Origin: Rickettsiales bacterium
GTDB lineage: Bacteria > Pseudomonadota > Alphaproteobacteria > Methylaequorales > Methylaequoraceae
Reading direction: 5' to 3'
NCBI GenBank assembly: GCA_002711625.1
Contig: PARR01000037.1
Location: forward strand, 6,426 to 18,199
Length of the DNA stretch: 11,774 nt
The notes beneath the pieces were generated by a model. It worked only from the letters and a program-made list of their open reading frames with translations. It had not been told where the DNA came from and ran no database searches. Each line of letters starts with the position of its first letter. Within the stretch, counting starts at the first letter, position 1. Below are positions 3,490 to 10,007 of the stretch, one piece after another. Both the position numbers and the translations under genes were made by a program.

Positions 3490-4269
3490 AAAAAATCTAT
3501 TTTGATCAATTTAAAAAATTTTATTCTATTAAATTTTTCATTTTAGTAGTTTTGATTTCAGCGCTTTTTTTTTTCTTTTTTTGATATTGTCATTTTTGAA
3601 TTTACAAGAAATATGCATGGATCTGTTTTTAGTTTTTTTAAACATGTTATTGACCCTATTTCTGAGGTTTTTGATCCGCTGAATGTAAGTATAATTTTAA
3701 TTTTATTTCTTTTTTTTTCCAACAATATTGAAGTGATTTCAAAAAACTCAAAAAAAATTTCTTTATTAAAAGATAAAACTGGACTAATAGAGTCAGAGAT
3801 ATTTTCAATTTTTTATTATTATAGATTAATTATAAAGCATTGTTTGATTTCTATAATTGTCGCGGGAATTGCGTGTAATGTTTTAAAGTATATTATGGGC
3901 GTAGCAAGACCAAAATACTTTTTTTTGGAAAACGCAGAACGGATTGATTTTTTTAATATAATTCAGAAAATGAATTCTTTTCCGTCTGGTCACACACAAG
4001 CAGCTTTCACAATGGCAGTGCTAATTTTGTTTTATGTAAATAGATTTTCAATTTTGGTTTTTTTACTTGCTTCTCTAATGGGAATTTCTAGAATATTTAT
4101 GTCAATGCATTTTCCAAGTGATATAATTTTTGGAGCATACTTGGGATTTATTATTCCGATTGCTCTTTATAATCATTTTTTTATTGAAAAAATTGAAAAA
4201 ATAGAAAATTGTAATTATTTATCGTTAAATAATTTTCTAAAATTACTGTATTGGAGATTTTTTTTATGA
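3486..4269 (+). CDS. PAP2-family membrane phosphatase, apparent frameshift at a T-tract
   Basis: The core is a PAP2 (lipid phosphate phosphatase) domain with all three signature motifs, numbered for the repaired 260-residue protein: KYIMGVARP (K134...R141-P142), SFPSGHT (PSGH 166-169) and SRIFMSMHFPSD (R202, nucleophile-assisting H208, D212). Such enzymes dephosphorylate lipids such as undecaprenyl diphosphate, phosphatidylglycerol phosphate or lipid A. As read, the continuous frame begins only at ATG 3613. However, an ATG at 3486 sits in an ATGA overlap with the ArnT-like stop and encodes a typical basic then hydrophobic N-terminus (MKKIYFDQF... up to the Phe run) that hits TGA at 3582 just after T10 (3565-3574) and T7 (3576-3582) runs. 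Removing one T joins both parts into a normal family-length protein continuing DIVIFEFTRN into the known ORF. Either a base-calling error or a real slippage site explains this. ATGA coupling to the next gene suggests one operon. Confidence 0.82.
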
Positions 4270-4580
4270 GAAAGCTTTCGCTTATTCTAATATTAAATAT
4301 GTTTATTTTTGGAAAATTATTTGCTGGCAGTTGGTGTAAAGTTCTATATGGGACTGAGATGACTGAAGGTGAGTTGCAAGAACAAATATCAAAATGCAGG
4401 AATTCTGACAATTTTTTTTTAGCTATCCATAGTAGTTACTCTAACGCTGGAAATCTATTAAATGGATTTACAGCAGAGCTGTGCAATTTAAATAGGAGAG
4501 TAATAACCACAAGCCCAAATGATAAAGACCCTTTTTTTTCACTCGTTTGTGAATATAAAAAAAATTTTTTAAGAAAATAA
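4266..4580 (+). CDS. small secreted four-cysteine protein, function unknown
   Basis: I do not recognise a characterised family. The 104-residue product starts with a clear Sec signal peptide: MRK, a hydrophobic core LSLILILNMFIFG, and a plausible signal peptidase I site after LFA (residues 18-20), giving a mature periplasmic protein of about 84 residues. The mature part has four cysteines (C24, C44, C73, C95), compatible with two disulfides, and a conserved-looking centre (MTEGELQEQ, FLAIHSSYSNAG). The ATG at 4266 was chosen over the upstream ATG at 4251 because it forms an ATGA overlap with the PAP2 stop and gives a proper signal peptide. Its position as the last gene of the ArnT-like/PAP2 run suggests an envelope role, which is inference only. 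Confidence 0.75.
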   Translation: MRKLSLILILNMFIFGKLFAGSWCKVLYGTEMTEGELQEQISKCRNSDNFFLAIHSSYSNAGNLLNGFTAELCNLNRRVITTSPNDKDPFFSLVCEYKKNFLRK

Positions 4581-4615
4581 TCTAAATTTTTTTTAAATAG
4601 GCCGTTTATTATACT

Positions 4616-4783
4616 ATGCTAAGTTTGATGCACAACATAAGAATTGACCGAGAAAAAAGAAATAAGTTTTATTCTTTTAAAACTAGCCTTAATAATCAAA
4701 ATACATCAGAATTAAATGGTGAGTTTGAAAGCAACTCACAAATGCTGTCAGCCAACTGGTTAACTTTATATAGGAGTCAATAA
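4616..4783 (+). CDS. possible 55-codon small ORF ending in the terminator
   Basis: An ATG at 4616 opens 55 codons to TAA at 4781-4783; a second in-frame ATG at 4628 would give 51 codons. The predicted product is hydrophilic, with a basic N-terminal part (IDREKRNKFYSFK) and an Asn/Ser-rich remainder ending NWLTLYRSQ. A TATACT -10-like hexamer at 4610-4615 lies directly before the first ATG, so the second ATG would be the better start if that promoter is used; no good -35 and no clear ribosome site are visible. The stop codon lies in the left arm of the terminator stem, which is where a short transcription unit would be expected to end. I recognise no family. It could also be a non-coding stretch that happens to be open. 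Confidence 0.35.
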   Translation: MLSLMHNIRIDREKRNKFYSFKTSLNNQNTSELNGEFESNSQMLSANWLTLYRSQ

Positions 4784-4810
4784 AACCCTGTCAGAAACAG
4801 GGTTTTATTG
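4778..4810. terminator. bidirectional intrinsic terminator
   Basis: A perfect 13-bp inverted repeat, CAATAAAACCCTG at 4778-4790 and CAGGGTTTTATTG at 4798-4810, surrounds a 7-nt loop (TCAGAAA). The GC core CCCTG/CAGGG is flanked by an A-tract on one side and a T-tract on the other, so it works as a rho-independent terminator in both directions. It can stop plus-strand transcripts arriving from the small ORF at 4616 (and the operon before it) and the minus-strand RNA started near 4900. It is the strongest hairpin I found in the window. Confidence 0.88.
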
Positions 4811-4817
4811 GAGGAAA

Positions 4818-4889
4818 TTAAAATAGACTTGAAACTAGTAAAAACAAAAATATTGAAGAGAACGTAATTGCACAAAATTTTGTTATCAT
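4818..4889 (-). CDS. 23-residue hydrophobic peptide, possible small membrane protein
   Basis: On the minus strand an ATG at 4889-4887 opens 23 codons to TAA at 4820-4818. The peptide starts MITKFCAITF and is then almost entirely hydrophobic (IFLFLLVSSLF at the C-terminus), long enough for one membrane span. A near-consensus sigma-70 promoter lies 19 bp upstream of the ATG, and a strong terminator begins 7 bp after the stop, so the reading frame nearly fills a predicted RNA of about 120 nt. The leader is only about 11 nt and has no clear Shine-Dalgarno sequence. Alternatives are a non-coding RNA with a chance ORF, a type I toxin-like peptide, or a small accessory membrane subunit; nothing in the sequence separates these. 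No known family is recognised. Confidence 0.5.
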   Translation of the reverse strand: MITKFCAITFSSIFLFLLVSSLF

Positions 4890-4904
4890 TATACCAGTTC
4901 AAAT

Positions 4905-4954
4905 AACAATATATAGATATATTTTTTATTTGTCAAACAATATATTGATTTATT
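4905..4954. repeat. 19-bp direct repeat pair, candidate operator
   Basis: AACAATATATAGATATATT at 4905-4923 recurs as AACAATATATTGATTTATT at 4936-4954, identical at 17 of 19 positions with a 31-bp offset, close to three helical turns. The first copy covers the -10 element of the minus-strand promoter and the second begins at its -35. The second copy also contains the perfect palindrome CAATATATTG (4938-4947). Placement and phasing fit a regulator binding two sites on one DNA face in the shared upstream region of the small RNA unit and the lipid cluster, but AT-rich sequence produces such matches by chance more easily. Confidence 0.4.
4908..4936 (-). promoter_or_regulatory. near-consensus sigma-70 promoter, minus strand
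   Basis: Read on the minus strand, TTGACA (4936-4931, a perfect -35 match) is followed by a 17-bp spacer and TATATT (4913-4908, one mismatch to the -10 consensus). The expected transcription start is near 4900, about 11 nt before the ATG of the 23-residue ORF, and the transcript would end at the hairpin ending at 4778. It points away from the amine-oxidase-like gene, so it is not that gene's promoter. It is the best promoter match I found in the window. Confidence 0.75.
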
Positions 4955-4992
4955 TTGCTGGTTAAATAAAAAAAAAATTCAATAATAAATTT

Positions 4993-6240
4993 GTGAAAAT
5001 TGCAGTTATTGGTAGTGGTATATCAGGTTTGTCGGCCTCTTGGCTAATATCTAATTACTATAAAGTCTATTTATTTGAAAAAAAATCTTATTTTGGAGGA
5101 CATTCTAATACTCAAATTGTTTATGAAAACAATAAAGAAATAGCAGTTGATACAGGATTTATTGTCTTTAATGAACATAACTATCCAAATTTATGTAAGC
5201 TTTTTAAAAGTTTAAATGTAAAAATCTTAGAAACTGACATGTCATTCAGTGTTTCTAGAAATAATGGTGAACTTGAATATTCTGGTTCAGGTTTAAGCGG
5301 TATTTTTGCACAAAAGAAGAATTTAGTAAATAAAGACTTTATGTTAATGTTATATGAAATTATAAAATTCTACAAATTTAACTCTCAACATTCTTCTGGA
5401 CGCAAGCCAGAAACTCTGTCTCAATTCCTAAACTCAAATAATTATTCAGACTATTTTAGATACAACCATATATACCCAATGGCAGCCAGTATCTGGTCTT
5501 CAAAACTTAGTGATATTGCTAATTATCCAATTGATAAATTTGTAAAATTTTTTAACAATCATAATTTATTTAATTTGTTTGTTCGTCCAAAATGGAGAAC
5601 AGTGCTAGGTGGTAGCAAACAATATGTAAAAAAAATTCTCAATTTAAAAAAAATTATTCCGAAAAAAGATATTAGTGTTGAAGTTTTAAATAGAAACACA
5701 AATCAAGTAACCTTGCTGATAAATGGGAAGAAAATGTTTTTTGATAAATTAGTAATTGCAACACACACTGATCAGGCAATTACACTATTAAAAGATTTAA
5801 CTAATGATGAAAAAAAAATTCTCGTTAATATAAAATATTCCGCTAATAAAATTTATTTCCATACTGACGAAACATTAATGCCAAAAAATAAAAAAGTTTG
5901 GTCTAGCTGGAATTTTCTTGGCAATGATTCCAAAAAGGAGAGATTATCGGTCTCATATTGGATGAATAATTTACAACATCTTTCTACTAATCAAAACTAT
6001 TTTGTAACTCTCAATCCATTTAAAAAACCAGTTGATTCAAAAATAATTAAAATTATTGACTATTCTCACCCTATGTTCACTTTCGACAGTTTTAAAGCCC
6101 AAGAAGAATTGAAAAAAATCCAAGGAAAGAATAGCACTTGGTTTTGTGGAGCTTATACAGGTTTTGGTTTTCATGAAGATGGTATAAAATCTGGACTGGG
6201 TGTTGCAGAACAAATCTTAGGCAAAAAAAGGCCATGGTAA
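4993..6240 (+). CDS. FAD-dependent amine-oxidase-like oxidoreductase (COG2907)
   Basis: A 415-residue flavoprotein of the NAD(P)-binding/amine oxidase superfamily. The N-terminus has the dinucleotide-binding GSGISG (G7, G9, G12) with the acidic ribose ligand E29, then FGGHSNT (34-40) and DTGFIVFNEHNYPNL (53-67). The middle has AASIWSS and the flavin-contact-like RTVLGGS, and the C-terminus has the FAD-closing GAYTGFGFHEDG (386-397). COG2907 members nearly always sit next to DUF1365 and a Cfa-like methyltransferase and are presumed to oxidise or desaturate the modified acyl chain; the substrate of this one is not known. The start is GTG at 4993, chosen because the dinucleotide fold begins immediately; there is no obvious ribosome site. 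It heads the plus-strand lipid cluster and overlaps the DUF1365 gene by 7 nt. Confidence 0.88.
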   Translation: MKIAVIGSGISGLSASWLISNYYKVYLFEKKSYFGGHSNTQIVYENNKEIAVDTGFIVFNEHNYPNLCKLFKSLNVKILETDMSFSVSRNNGELEYSGSGLSGIFAQKKNLVNKDFMLMLYEIIKFYKFNSQHSSGRKPETLSQFLNSNNYSDYFRYNHIYPMAASIWSSKLSDIANYPIDKFVKFFNNHNLFNLFVRPKWRTVLGGSKQYVKKILNLKKIIPKKDISVEVLNRNTNQVTLLINGKKMFFDKLVIATHTDQAITLLKDLTNDEKKILVNIKYSANKIYFHTDETLMPKNKKVWSSWNFLGNDSKKERLSVSYWMNNLQHLSTNQNYFVTLNPFKKPVDSKIIKIIDYSHPMFTFDSFKAQEELKKIQGKNSTWFCGAYTGFGFHEDGIKSGLGVAEQILGKKRPW

Positions 6241-7061
6241 AAATAGAGAAGCCGGAAAATACCATGTATGCAGGTGAAGTTAGACATACAAGACTTTATC
6301 CGATCTATCATTCTTTTAAATATAAATTAGTATATTTTTGGTTTGATATCGAAAAATTTAGTAATACAATTTTATTTAAAAAAAATAAGTTTGCATTATT
6401 TTCTTTTAATGAAAATGACCATGGTGAGTTCAAACAAAAGTCTCCTCTCAAAGAATCTTTTAAAAATGAACTACAAAAACATCAAATTTACAATTTTGAT
6501 TCAGTAATGGTTTTGTGTTTACCCAGAATCTTAGGATATGTTTTTAATCCTATCGCCGTTTTTGTATTTTACAAAAAGGAAAGTCCGATAGCATTAATTT
6601 TTGAGGTGAGTAATACTTTTGATGAAAAACATGCATACATATGCAAAATCACAGGCAAAACTAATAGGTTTAAAATGAAGAAAAGACTTTATGTTTCACC
6701 TTTTTTTAAAGTCAAAGGATACTACAACATTAATTTTTGTATTAATAAAAATTCCACCAAATTAAGTGTGATCTATAAATGCGATGAGAAAATTCTATTC
6801 GAAGCCTGTTTTAATGGTTGTTCAATAAAATTTACAGGGAGAAACATAATTAAAGTTTTCTTTTCAAGATTATTGCAAAACGTTAAGGTTACCCTGGCAA
6901 TTTACTATGAAGCATTGAAATTATTCTTAAAAGGAGCAACTTATAAAGTAAAACCAAAAAAGAATAAAAATTTTTATTCAAAAAATTTAAATGAGAAAAA
7001 AAAAAAAAAAAACTTGATTTGTTTTTACAGCTTCTCTCTGAAGCCAAGTTCGGAAGTATAG
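6234..7061 (+). CDS. DUF1365 family protein (COG3496)
   Basis: A DUF1365 protein, a family of unknown biochemical function that is a near-constant partner of COG2907 and Cfa-like genes. Motifs are MYAGEVRHTRLYPIYHSFKY (11-30), a FDIE segment (37-40), DHGEF (62-66), CLPRILGYVFNPIAVFVFY (95-113), EVSNTFDEKHAY (124-135) and KRLYVSPFF (150-158). The ATG at 6234 overlaps the upstream gene by 7 nt; an ATG at 6264 (M11) is an alternative start. As read, the protein ends in a Lys run encoded by an A17 tract (6996-7012) followed by 16 unrelated-looking residues that overlap the Cfa gene. If one A were absent, the frame would stop at TGA 7015-7017 right after the Lys run, which is the more natural end. 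The last residues are therefore doubtful. Confidence 0.87.
   Translation: MVKIEKPENTMYAGEVRHTRLYPIYHSFKYKLVYFWFDIEKFSNTILFKKNKFALFSFNENDHGEFKQKSPLKESFKNELQKHQIYNFDSVMVLCLPRILGYVFNPIAVFVFYKKESPIALIFEVSNTFDEKHAYICKITGKTNRFKMKKRLYVSPFFKVKGYYNINFCINKNSTKLSVIYKCDEKILFEACFNGCSIKFTGRNIIKVFFSRLLQNVKVTLAIYYEALKLFLKGATYKVKPKKNKNFYSKNLNEKKKKKNLICFYSFSLKPSSEV
6996..7012 (+). repeat. A17 homopolymer at the DUF1365/Cfa junction
   Basis: Seventeen consecutive A residues follow ATGAG (6991-6995). The ATG is in the frame that would read into the Cfa gene if the run were one base shorter, giving an N-terminus of MR, five lysines and then LDLFLQLL. With 17 the same ATG reads into TGA at 7015. The tract therefore decides both the end of the DUF1365 protein and the start of the methyltransferase. 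Confidence 0.9.
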
Positions 7062-8173
7062 TCGTTATTAAGGATAAAAAGAGACTTCTGCATCACATTG
7101 GGGTTAAGAAAGGCCCTAGTGCACAAATTTTCATAAGAAGTAAAAAATGTATAGATGATTTTTTTCTGAAAGGTGATTTAGGTTGGGCGGAAAGTTACAT
7201 TGAAGGAAATTGGGATACACCGGATCTTTCAGATTTTTTAGAATGGGGAGCTCTCAATTTCCATGAATTCACAAGATTTATGAGGGGGAAATGGTACATT
7301 ATTGTTTACTTAAGGTTGCGTCATATGCTGAATAGAAATTCAAAGGCAGGTTCAAAAAGGAATATTAGTTTTCACTATGATTTAGGTAACAACTTCTACA
7401 AACAATGGTTAGATAAGTCTATGACTTACTCATCTGCCATATTTAAAAATAAAAATCAAGATTTATATCCTGCACAATTGAATAAATATGAACAACTTTC
7501 AAACTTATGTGGAATTAAACCTGGGAAAAGTGTGCTAGAAGTTGGATGCGGATGGGGAGGCTTTTCTGAATTTTTGGCCAAAAGATTTAAATCTAAAGTT
7601 ACAGCAATTACAATATCTCAAAAACAATTCGAATCTGTAAAACAGAAAATCCAAGAGGAGCATTTAAATGAGCTTATTGATGTTAAGTTGTCTGATTATA
7701 GAGATGTAAAAGGTCAGTTTGATCATGTCGTTTCTATTGAAATGTTTGAAGCTGTTGGAGAAAAGTATTGGGCAACTTTCTTTGACACCTTAAAACAAAA
7801 TCTTACATATAATGGAACCATTGGACTTCAAACAATCACAATTGAAGATAATTTTTTTAAAAGTTATAAAAAATTTCCAGACTTTATCCAAACCTATATT
7901 TTTCCTGGAGGCATGTTACCTTCGGTAGAAGAAATTAAGAAAATTACAAGAGTTACTGGTCTCAGAGTCGATAAAGAAAATATGTTTGGTGAACATTATG
8001 CAAAAACAATTAAACACTGGAAAAAGTCTTTTGACAATTCTTGGAATAATATCCGGACTTGTGGATTTGACAATACTTTTAAGCGACTTTGGAAATATTA
8101 TTTAAGTTATTGTGAGGGCGGTTTTAGGTCAGGAAATATCAACGTAGGCCAATTTCTAATAAAGAAAGTCTAA
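7019..8173 (+). CDS. Cfa-family S-adenosylmethionine-dependent fatty-acyl phospholipid methyltransferase
   Basis: A 384-residue member of the mycolic acid/cyclopropane synthase family (COG2230), which adds a SAM-derived carbon to double bonds of membrane phospholipid acyl chains. It has the N-terminal lipid-binding part (GDLGWAESYIEGNWDTPDLSDF), the FHYDLGNNFYKQWLD motif (118-132), the SAM loop VLEVGCGWGG (172-181), SDYRD, SIEMFEAVG (239-247), YIFPGGMLPS (293-302) and GEHYAKTI. Relative to E. coli Cfa, the bicarbonate-binding Cys is Ser139 (YSSA) and the His is Gln271 (LQTI), while Glu244 and Tyr327 are kept. This pattern suggests a product other than a cyclopropane, such as a methyl- or methylene-branched chain. 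The continuous frame only offers TTG 7019 as start; ATG 6991 becomes the natural start if the A17 tract loses one base. The TAA stop is 1 nt from the next gene. Confidence 0.88.
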   Translation: MFLQLLSEAKFGSIVVIKDKKRLLHHIGVKKGPSAQIFIRSKKCIDDFFLKGDLGWAESYIEGNWDTPDLSDFLEWGALNFHEFTRFMRGKWYIIVYLRLRHMLNRNSKAGSKRNISFHYDLGNNFYKQWLDKSMTYSSAIFKNKNQDLYPAQLNKYEQLSNLCGIKPGKSVLEVGCGWGGFSEFLAKRFKSKVTAITISQKQFESVKQKIQEEHLNELIDVKLSDYRDVKGQFDHVVSIEMFEAVGEKYWATFFDTLKQNLTYNGTIGLQTITIEDNFFKSYKKFPDFIQTYIFPGGMLPSVEEIKKITRVTGLRVDKENMFGEHYAKTIKHWKKSFDNSWNNIRTCGFDNTFKRLWKYYLSYCEGGFRSGNINVGQFLIKKV

Positions 8174-8174
8174 A

Positions 8175-9461
8175 TTGAAGCACCTTCTGAGAAATCTTGT
8201 ATACTCTTTTCCTGCTTTTGCTTTCGCCGTTCCTACCCTCCCAGTAATGATTTTACTTCCTCCATTGTATTCAGAAAAATTCGGATATGATATTGCCATA
8301 ATTGGTATTTCAATTTTTTTTGCTAGAATAATTGATATTTTATCAGACCCAATTATGGGATGGATTTGTGATAAGAATTATTTTTCAAAAAAAATTTGGC
8401 TGATAGCTGGTGGTTTACTATCTGGATTTGCACTGTATAAGTTACTTGTTGTTGAGAATGTTACATACAAAGAATATTTATTTGTTTGGATAAGTGTTTT
8501 ATATTTTGGTTGGACAATCTTCCAGATACCATATCTATCAATAGGCTACGATCTTGAAAAAGACTATCACTCCAGAACCAAACTAAACGCATCGCGAGAA
8601 ATGTTTATTTTGTTAGGTTTATTTTTCTCATTGACCTTCCCAATATTTTTTAAGTTACAGACATTTGACAGTCTAGAATATTTAGTTTTTATAGTTATCT
8701 CCTTCGGAATTATAAGTTTGATTCTTTTTATATTTCTTGTTGATGAAAAGTTTGTACCAAAAAAAAAGAAGAACTTTTTTCAAGTTTACAAAAACTTAAT
8801 AAAAAACAAAAGGTATGTGATTTTAATAGGTGCTTCCTTTATCAATAATATAGCTAACGTTCTACCAATGATATTATTTTCATTTTTTGTAACAGACGTT
8901 CTAGGTGGTAGTGATAAGGAAAGACAATATCTTTTATTTTTTTACTTTCTTTTTGCAATTATTGGAGTTCCATTTTGGTCATACTTAAGTAATGCTTTAG
9001 AAAAAAAAAAATGTTGGATATTGTCACTTATTCTATCCTCTGCATTTTTTATTTTTGTGCTATTAATTGGCAGAGATGATATCTTTCTTTTTATAATAAT
9101 CTGTTGTTTGACAGGATTTTGTCTTGGAGCAGACATGTTCTTGCCTCCGTCAATGCAAGCTGATGTAACAGATTATCACAAATTAAGGTTTAATGAGGAT
9201 ATATCTGGGGTAATGTTTGCTTCTATCACTTTTCTTAATAAGTTTGCTTTTGCTGTAGGAAGTATTTTTGTTTTTTCCATCCTTGGATTTCTAAAATTTG
9301 AAACCAACTCAACAATTAGTAGTGAGAGTAAGGCATTTATATATATTTCATATGCTTTAATACCTGTATTTCTAAAATTATTTTCAAGCTATCTTTTAAC
9401 GAAATTCAATTCCAGCAGAATGGATCAACTTCAAATACAAAAAAAAATATATGGAAATTAA
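8175..9461 (+). CDS. MFS transporter, GPH (glycoside-pentoside-hexuronide)-like family
   Basis: A 428-residue integral membrane protein with about twelve hydrophobic segments, resembling COG2211 (MelB-like) carriers. The first half contains ARIIDILSDPIMGWICDK (50-67), the family's conserved Asp-rich helix II/loop motif, and TRTKL-like SRTKLNASRE after helix IV. Members encoded in COG2907/DUF1365/Cfa clusters have no demonstrated substrate; transport of a lipid or lipid-derived compound is possible but is inference. The start is TTG at 8175, one base after the Cfa stop; the nearest alternative in-frame ATG (about residue 25) would remove most of the first helix, so TTG is preferred. It is followed after 24 nt by the lipoprotein gene. 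Confidence 0.85.
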   Translation: MKHLLRNLVYSFPAFAFAVPTLPVMILLPPLYSEKFGYDIAIIGISIFFARIIDILSDPIMGWICDKNYFSKKIWLIAGGLLSGFALYKLLVVENVTYKEYLFVWISVLYFGWTIFQIPYLSIGYDLEKDYHSRTKLNASREMFILLGLFFSLTFPIFFKLQTFDSLEYLVFIVISFGIISLILFIFLVDEKFVPKKKKNFFQVYKNLIKNKRYVILIGASFINNIANVLPMILFSFFVTDVLGGSDKERQYLLFFYFLFAIIGVPFWSYLSNALEKKKCWILSLILSSAFFIFVLLIGRDDIFLFIIICCLTGFCLGADMFLPPSMQADVTDYHKLRFNEDISGVMFASITFLNKFAFAVGSIFVFSILGFLKFETNSTISSESKAFIYISYALIPVFLKLFSSYLLTKFNSSRMDQLQIQKKIYGN

Positions 9462-9485
9462 CACCGTATAAACTATACTGAAATT

Positions 9486-10007
9486 GTGAGATTTGTTTTA
9501 ACTTTAATTGTTTTATTCCTAACATCCTGTACTGAAAAAATGAATATTACTGAATTTAAAGATGCTGAGCCTAGGTTTGTCCTAGAGGACTATTTTAATG
9601 GTCAGGTTAAGGCTTGGGGTCTATTCCATGATAGATTTGGCAATCTTAAAAGATCCTTTAAAGTTGATATCAAAGGGACAATAGATAACAATGAGCTTAT
9701 TCTTGATGAAAAGTTTTTGTATAATGATGGTGAAGAAGACCAAAGAATATGGAAAATTAAAATATTGGGTGATAATGAATATTCTGGTACTGCTGACGAC
9801 GTAATTGGCGAAGCGATTGGAAGTTCATCTGGAAATGCATTAAACTGGAAATACAAACTTAGTTTAAAAGTTAAAGATTCATATGTTTTAGTTGACTTTG
9901 ATGATTGGATGTTTCTCAAAGACAATAACATACTCATGAATAGAGCAGTTATAAAGAAATGGGGGATTGAGTTAGGAGTTGTCTCTATAACATTCTTAAA
10001 AATTTAA
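9486..10007 (+). CDS. DUF3833 family lipoprotein
   Basis: A 173-residue predicted lipoprotein. The N-terminus MRFVLTLIVLFLTSC ends in a lipobox (LTSC), so C15 would be the lipidated residue. The mature part matches DUF3833: LEDYFNGQVKAWG (33-45), a GLFHDRFGNLKRSF stretch, an EDQRIWKI strand, YSGTADDVIGEA and the late FDDWMFLKDNNILMNRA segment. This is a beta-rich, possibly lipid-binding envelope protein of unknown activity, regularly found in the same cluster as COG2907, DUF1365 and Cfa. The start is GTG 9486, just before the signal peptide. It is the last gene of the plus-strand run, and its TAA stop lies in the TTAA shared with the converging gene. Confidence 0.85.
   Translation: MRFVLTLIVLFLTSCTEKMNITEFKDAEPRFVLEDYFNGQVKAWGLFHDRFGNLKRSFKVDIKGTIDNNELILDEKFLYNDGEEDQRIWKIKILGDNEYSGTADDVIGEAIGSSSGNALNWKYKLSLKVKDSYVLVDFDDWMFLKDNNILMNRAVIKKWGIELGVVSITFLKI

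Follow-up and report, generated by a model that had tools for sequence, protein, structure and literature searches.

The window, that is, the whole stretch of 11,774 nucleotides analysed here, from an AT-rich alphaproteobacterium, carries a short minus-strand unit in which a promoter, a reading frame and a terminator hairpin follow one another in this order, all checked and found at the positions that an earlier, sequence-only reading of the same DNA had given them. As that reading stated, the unit lies divergent from a lipid cluster (4993-10007, plus strand), which encodes amine oxidase-like, DUF1365, CMAS, MFS and DUF3833 proteins and, judging by these domains and their order, would resemble the Rhodobacter sphaeroides genes for furan fatty acids (PMC7380195). 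On its other side the unit runs towards a convergent small gene. Farther out, between a PAP2 gene and this 55-codon gene, a conserved and secreted-looking small protein with WCK and CKNSDNFF motifs is encoded at 4266-4580 (plus strand); it has no match in NCBIfam and only a sub-threshold one in Pfam. The features of the locus are the following.

4936-4931, minus strand: -35 box TTGACA, present as TTGAC(A/T) in 27/27 complete copies of the unit
4913-4908, minus strand: -10 box TATATT after a spacer of 17 bp, present as TAT(A/G)TT in 27/27 complete copies
4938-4947, no strand: palindrome CAATATATTG adjoining the -35 region, a possible operator, kept in relatives as CAATATATTG, CTATATATAG or mixed forms
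4907-4916, no strand: CTATATATTG (as read on the minus strand) around the -10 box, a possible second operator, CTATATATTG or CTATATGTTG in relatives
4778-4900, minus strand: predicted transcript of about 120 nt, matched by RNA model R1 in 28/32 genomes of the family
4892-4900, minus strand: 5′ arm of helix 1 (predicted nucleotides 1-9 of the transcript), pairing with 4832-4840
4889-4818, minus strand: ORF of 23 codons with a single predicted membrane span, MITKFCAITFSSIFLFLLVSSLF*, from translation and comparison in 27 copies
4832-4840, minus strand: 3′ arm of helix 1, within the ORF at codons 18-21 (24-codon numbering), pairing with 4892-4900
4804-4829, minus strand: near-invariant segment AGTCTATTTTAATTTCCTCCAATAAA, made of the ORF end, stop codon, linker and first part of the terminator, with 25/26 columns invariant among 26 sequences
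4810-4778, no strand: terminator hairpin, T-rich in its arms on either strand, common to the unit and the convergent gene, from covariation and folds
4616-4783, plus strand: convergent conserved protein of 55 aa with its stop codon within the hairpin, from protein conservation
4583-4606, plus strand: promoter of the convergent gene, putatively flagellar (sigma-28-like), TAAAT-N14-CCGTT, a degenerate form in the window, from motif comparison

Promoter, spread and genomic place of the unit

The TTGACA, the 17-bp spacer and the TATATT of the sequence-only reading are all there. A promoter match alone, nevertheless, says little in a window as AT-rich as this one, where promoter-like sites are not above chance (51, against a shuffle mean of 66.4), and comparison across relatives was therefore needed. 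The same reading held that promoter, ORF and terminator in register are unlikely to arise by chance; the promoter match does not bear this out, whilst conservation in the family does. A mere accident of AT-rich DNA, which the unenriched promoter-like sites would fit, is contradicted by the comparison and hardly deserves credence, because the unit is found in 28 of the 32 family genomes and its 17-bp spacer is kept in every one of the 27 complete copies. In all of these, promoter, ORF and terminator stand in the same mutual register (the promoter was counted by script in 25 copies, and by eye in L006 and L024). Comparison of the relatives thus confirms the minus-strand unit as real. In the best explanation its promoter is of the sigma-70 type, and from the -10 box, together with the point where helix 1 begins, the transcript would start near 4900.

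The two operator-like sites are AT-rich, palindrome-like and conserved, lie 31 bp apart and flank the -35 box, and, within its own genome, the combination of the palindrome and the -35 box without mismatch occurs at the unit's locus only. That these are two operators acting at the unit's promoter is a fair guess from their conservation.

RNA model R1 was built from alignment A1 (26 sequences), to which L079 was added for the ORF test (27 sequences). Rows that present the window again (L001 and L034), that come from the same contig as L014 (L035) or that are cut by a contig end (L012) were removed, and L085 was too short to enter the ORF test. The model matches in 11 of the 12 genera, at one locus per genome with two exceptions: G022 has a second copy of identical score on another contig, and the copy of G006 is split across two contig ends. 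Apart from these cases no paralogues were found, the model's other matches falling on the locus itself, read on its opposite strand. The rest of the window's own genome has two weak DNA matches, both inside ORFs, and these were rejected as further copies. The genomes of the order that were covered are those of the family alone, and among 385 sampled genomes of the class there were five matches, four of them in the family and one weak (G285), which was discarded, as it resembles a terminator next to a tRNA-like stretch. The phage records and viral contigs searched contained no match.

The genomes with the unit are the same 28 that have the amine oxidase, and the four without it are also without the amine oxidase and PAP2 genes, save for a weak amine oxidase match of 30% identity in G025; in these four the whole locus was either lost or not assembled. 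Family loci that reach far enough (60 genomes were searched with the protein of the divergent amine oxidase-like gene) have the order PAP2, small secreted protein, gap and amine oxidase, and parsing of 20 distinct loci put the GSG motif of the amine oxidase 418-447 bp away from the stop of the secreted protein. By this distribution the unit belongs to the core genes of its host family of marine bacteria, in single copy and at one fixed place.

The membrane peptide

The hydrophobic 23-codon ORF is present as the earlier reading described it. That reading regarded relatives with an intact promoter and terminator around a broken frame as the case against a peptide; what is found across the 27 complete copies is an ORF free of indels, with its stop kept in all of them and, in 24, an ATG-started length of 23 or 24 codons, and the unit survives this comparison. 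The ATG stands at codon 1 in 20 copies and at codon 2 in four (L004, which is the window, L008, L018 and L023), and these four are scattered on the amine oxidase tree, which holds 25 of the 27 copies (L016 and L079 are missing). The three copies with an ATG at neither codon are L007 and L013, from sister genomes with ATT TCA there, and L021, which has GTA and further amino acid changes. In L007 and L013 a GTG in the same frame, three codons farther upstream and close to the predicted 5′ end, might serve as the start; in the 12 nt upstream of L021 there is no ATG, GTG or TTG, and an in-frame TGA is found.

Changes within the ORF follow the codons. Amino acid replacements are conservative for the most part, and one clade writes the serine of codon 12 as TCN, and the other mostly has AGY there (L025 and L026 have GGC, for glycine). 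Variable columns number 16, 7 and 18 at the first, second and third codon positions, out of 23 each. The coding score of 2.01 compares with -0.56 (sd 0.63) in column shuffles, none of 5000 of which scored as high, and when only the variable columns were shuffled 6/5000 did so. Substitutions are biased towards synonymous ones, the pattern that the sequence-only reading had suggested looking for in relatives, with pN/pS of 0.18 and 0.24 inside the clades and of 0.40 across them (only here was L021 excluded); in shuffles of a subset of 12 sequences none of 300 was as low as the observed 0.40. The one plus-strand frame that is open opposite the peptide in the aligned part was rejected as a coding alternative, since its score of 0.97 is below the 1.95 of the peptide frame, and no standard start was noticed nearby. 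Coding score, pN/pS and the shifted ATG together indicate that the ORF is under protein-level selection, and we take most of the family to have a real peptide, with doubt for L007, L013 and L021. Thirteen variants of it had no match in Pfam or NCBIfam.

An RNA that is noncoding only, with an incidental or decaying ORF, would agree with the three copies that keep the RNA without an ATG at codon 1 or 2, and with the fact that no Shine-Dalgarno is visible in the leader of about 8-13 nt. The coding score and pN/pS speak against it, as do the ATG shifted in four copies and the serine codons that switch between TCN and AGY, and we consider it very improbable. The ORF as a leader peptide or attenuator was rejected also, as the minus strand just downstream has no notable ORF and only the convergent plus-strand gene lies there.

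The RNA elements and what they may do

Covariance analysis, which the sequence-only reading had proposed, finds that the terminator and the 5′ stem both covary. The hairpin begins 7 nt past the stop of the ORF, as that reading had it, and is real, with a stem of 14 Watson-Crick pairs rather than its 13 and a wobble pair added by the fold; double changes occur in 6 of the 15 pairs. A stretch of 51 nt with the hairpin has a fold z of -7.7 on the minus strand and -5.9 on the plus strand. The terminator scan of the window does not have the hairpin at 4810-4778 in its output, presumably because the T run sits inside the stem. The earlier description of the unit as self-contained was right in that the unit is real, and fell short in that its terminator doubles as the 3′ end of the convergent conserved small gene, which had been missed; because of this sharing the unit is not quite self-contained.

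Helix 1 begins at the expected transcript start. Its cells are paired in 98.3% of cases, and cells with double changes number 14 against 2.9 in shuffles (0/500 as high), whilst weak results came from two of the five measures, namely the number of pairs with double changes (3, with 1.3 in shuffles; 22/500 as high) and that of pair types (12, with 11.7 in shuffles; 333/500 as high). The inner helix is weaker, with 89.7% of cells paired and a double change in 1/9 pairs. The invariant columns around the stop codon (25/26) include UUUCCUCC. The first part of AGTCTATTTTAATTTCCTCCAATAAA encodes S-L-F-stop, where silent variation is possible, and yet the segment is almost invariant. By inspection, UAUUUUAAUUUCCUCC, the tail, is the complement of sequences of the form GGAGGAAAUUAAAAUG, a Shine-Dalgarno with a start codon. 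The covarying stem, the covarying terminator and the tail indicate that the unit is constrained as RNA too.

Taken together, comparison of the relatives shows a conserved unit, coding selection, covariation of the 5′ stem and the terminator, and invariance of the tail; transcription, membrane insertion and controlled translation are what we infer from these. The reading to which we give somewhat better than even chances is that of a structured, short-leader mRNA for a small membrane peptide, weakly translated and with a second function in a pairing tail. A sigma-70-type promoter would give an RNA of about 120 nt that encodes a membrane peptide of 23-24 aa and carries conserved RNA elements. 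Its 5′ end would fold back onto the late codons, leaving the start codon at the end of the stem or in a bulge, and the peptide would be made weakly, or only once the stem opens. The tail UAUUUUAAUUUCCUCC would most likely base-pair with other mRNAs at the Shine-Dalgarno and start codon, which would make this a dual-function RNA. A small membrane protein, a type I toxin-like peptide and an sRNA were the options of the sequence-only reading; with the peptide and RNA layers both conserved there is no either/or, and the toxin idea is without an antitoxin.

A base-pairing role of the tail, which we infer, found no companion signal in the searches for targets. The complement of the tail occurs in its own genome, with up to three mismatches, at 35 sites (own locus included) against 33 for the reversed control, and across the family, with up to two mismatches, at 114 sites (29 of which are the RNA's own loci) against 131, so that near-perfect targets are above control in neither. 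For the leaders of neighbouring and of flagellar genes, no pairing with the tail was conserved or significant; against the leaders at ten sigma-28-like sites, the lowest counts of single-base shuffles at least as strong were 23 and 36 of 200. The Shine-Dalgarno of the gene at 4251-4580 was considered as a target and dropped: pairing is possible in the window, but TGGAG is present in 5/13 among the copies listed. Hfq (PF17209) was found in 0/32 family genomes, many of them incomplete; in a control the search matched in 5/14 named genomes, Caulobacter included.

The lack of a target signal and of Hfq in the 32 genomes searched, as well as the coding selection, would suit a gene for a small membrane protein only, whose 5′ stem and tail tune the stability, translation or termination of its own mRNA. 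This is rather unlikely in our judgement, as conservation is higher in the tail, most of which lies beyond the ORF, than in the ORF. A bolder form of the dual-function reading, which we put forward tentatively and with less than even confidence, is that of a family-wide RNA, in a lineage in which no Hfq was detected, as a closed short-leader mRNA whose near-invariant UAUUUUAAUUUCCUCC is antisense to the Shine-Dalgarno and start codon and couples membrane state to translation.

Type I toxins such as Ibs and TisB have a short hydrophobic peptide. A toxin-like unit, its hydrophobic peptide encoded by an mRNA that 5′ pairing keeps closed and an antisense RNA silences, would share with the AapA family both this kind of peptide and a paired mRNA 5′ end, as in closed toxin mRNAs (PMC6733600), whose 5′ and 3′ ends pair with each other. 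The same source has the 5′ end of the AapA3 mRNA paired and its Shine-Dalgarno sequestered (PMC6733600), whereas no Shine-Dalgarno is visible here. No sigma-70-like site was found on the plus strand of 4434-5530 at the scan threshold, leaving no antisense partner in sight, and the convergent transcript would overlap the hairpin only and encodes a protein of its own. The single copy at one fixed core locus in 28 of 32 genomes, and the 13 peptide variants without a family match, weigh against a toxin as well, which we regard as improbable.

Single-stranded CCUCC elements beside a terminator hairpin are found in the csRNAs of streptococci and in PsrR1 of cyanobacteria, and the unit resembles both in this respect, as it does the rhizobial CCUCCUCCC-loop RNAs; we know of no membrane peptide encoded by any of the three. 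The CCUCCUCCC loops of the rhizobial RNAs are described as anti Shine-Dalgarno (PMC3927594). In Rfam, the window and six relatives reached no family at gathering score, and short stretches gave some hairpin families at low E-values, far below gathering: L014 scored 24.9 for csRNA (gathering 57) and 25.3 for PsrR1 (gathering 42), and the window 19.5 for PsrR1. With VcdRP of Vibrio cholerae, which encodes the 29-aa VcdP, and AzuCR of E. coli the unit shares a short transcript, a tiny ORF and, separate from the latter, a single-stranded element rich in C. VcdR works via four consecutive cytosines, and Hfq is a keyword of the VcdRP paper (PMC8672173). The unit differs in that no Hfq was found in its host family (32 genomes), no target was found for it, and its predicted 5′ end is paired into the ORF.

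The earlier statement that there is no described family holds in Rfam, Pfam and NCBIfam, and the titles and abstracts of the papers searched, a scope that excludes most subscription journals, do not describe the unit. From the comparison, the unit is a new small gene, conserved and constrained in its peptide as well as in its RNA, and better supported than first described. Streamlined marine bacteria are thought to be poor in regulators. With its conserved peptide, its covarying 5′ stem and a tail that hardly changes, the unit is a testable candidate for one in a lineage without detectable Hfq.

The convergent gene

Genes as tiny as these slip past ordinary annotation, and the convergent gene of 55-58 aa is a second small core gene of the locus that lacks a family match, its protein having none in Pfam or NCBIfam. 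It is present in all 28 RNA-bearing loci read, with a protein of 54-58 aa in most relatives and relatives of 80-87% identity in the protein collection. It ends in or just before the hairpin; in L005 alone it stops short of this point, leaving the hairpin to the RNA unit.

In 20 of 22 copies its ATG lies 8-9 nt past TAAA(C/T)-N14-(T/C)CGT(T/A); in the two exceptions, L015 and L085, the script chose an earlier ATG. This motif resembles the consensus of sigma-28 flagellar promoters. In the four genomes sampled, the exact form TAAAC-N13-GTCGTT has 14 sites and the control has 6 (4 against 4 in G002). The gene is a candidate small member of the flagellar regulon, to which it probably belongs: four of the 14 exact sites precede the convergent gene itself, two a flagellin, six FliS-like genes and two neither, and Pfam agreed with these identities for the one flagellin and three FliS-like proteins compared.
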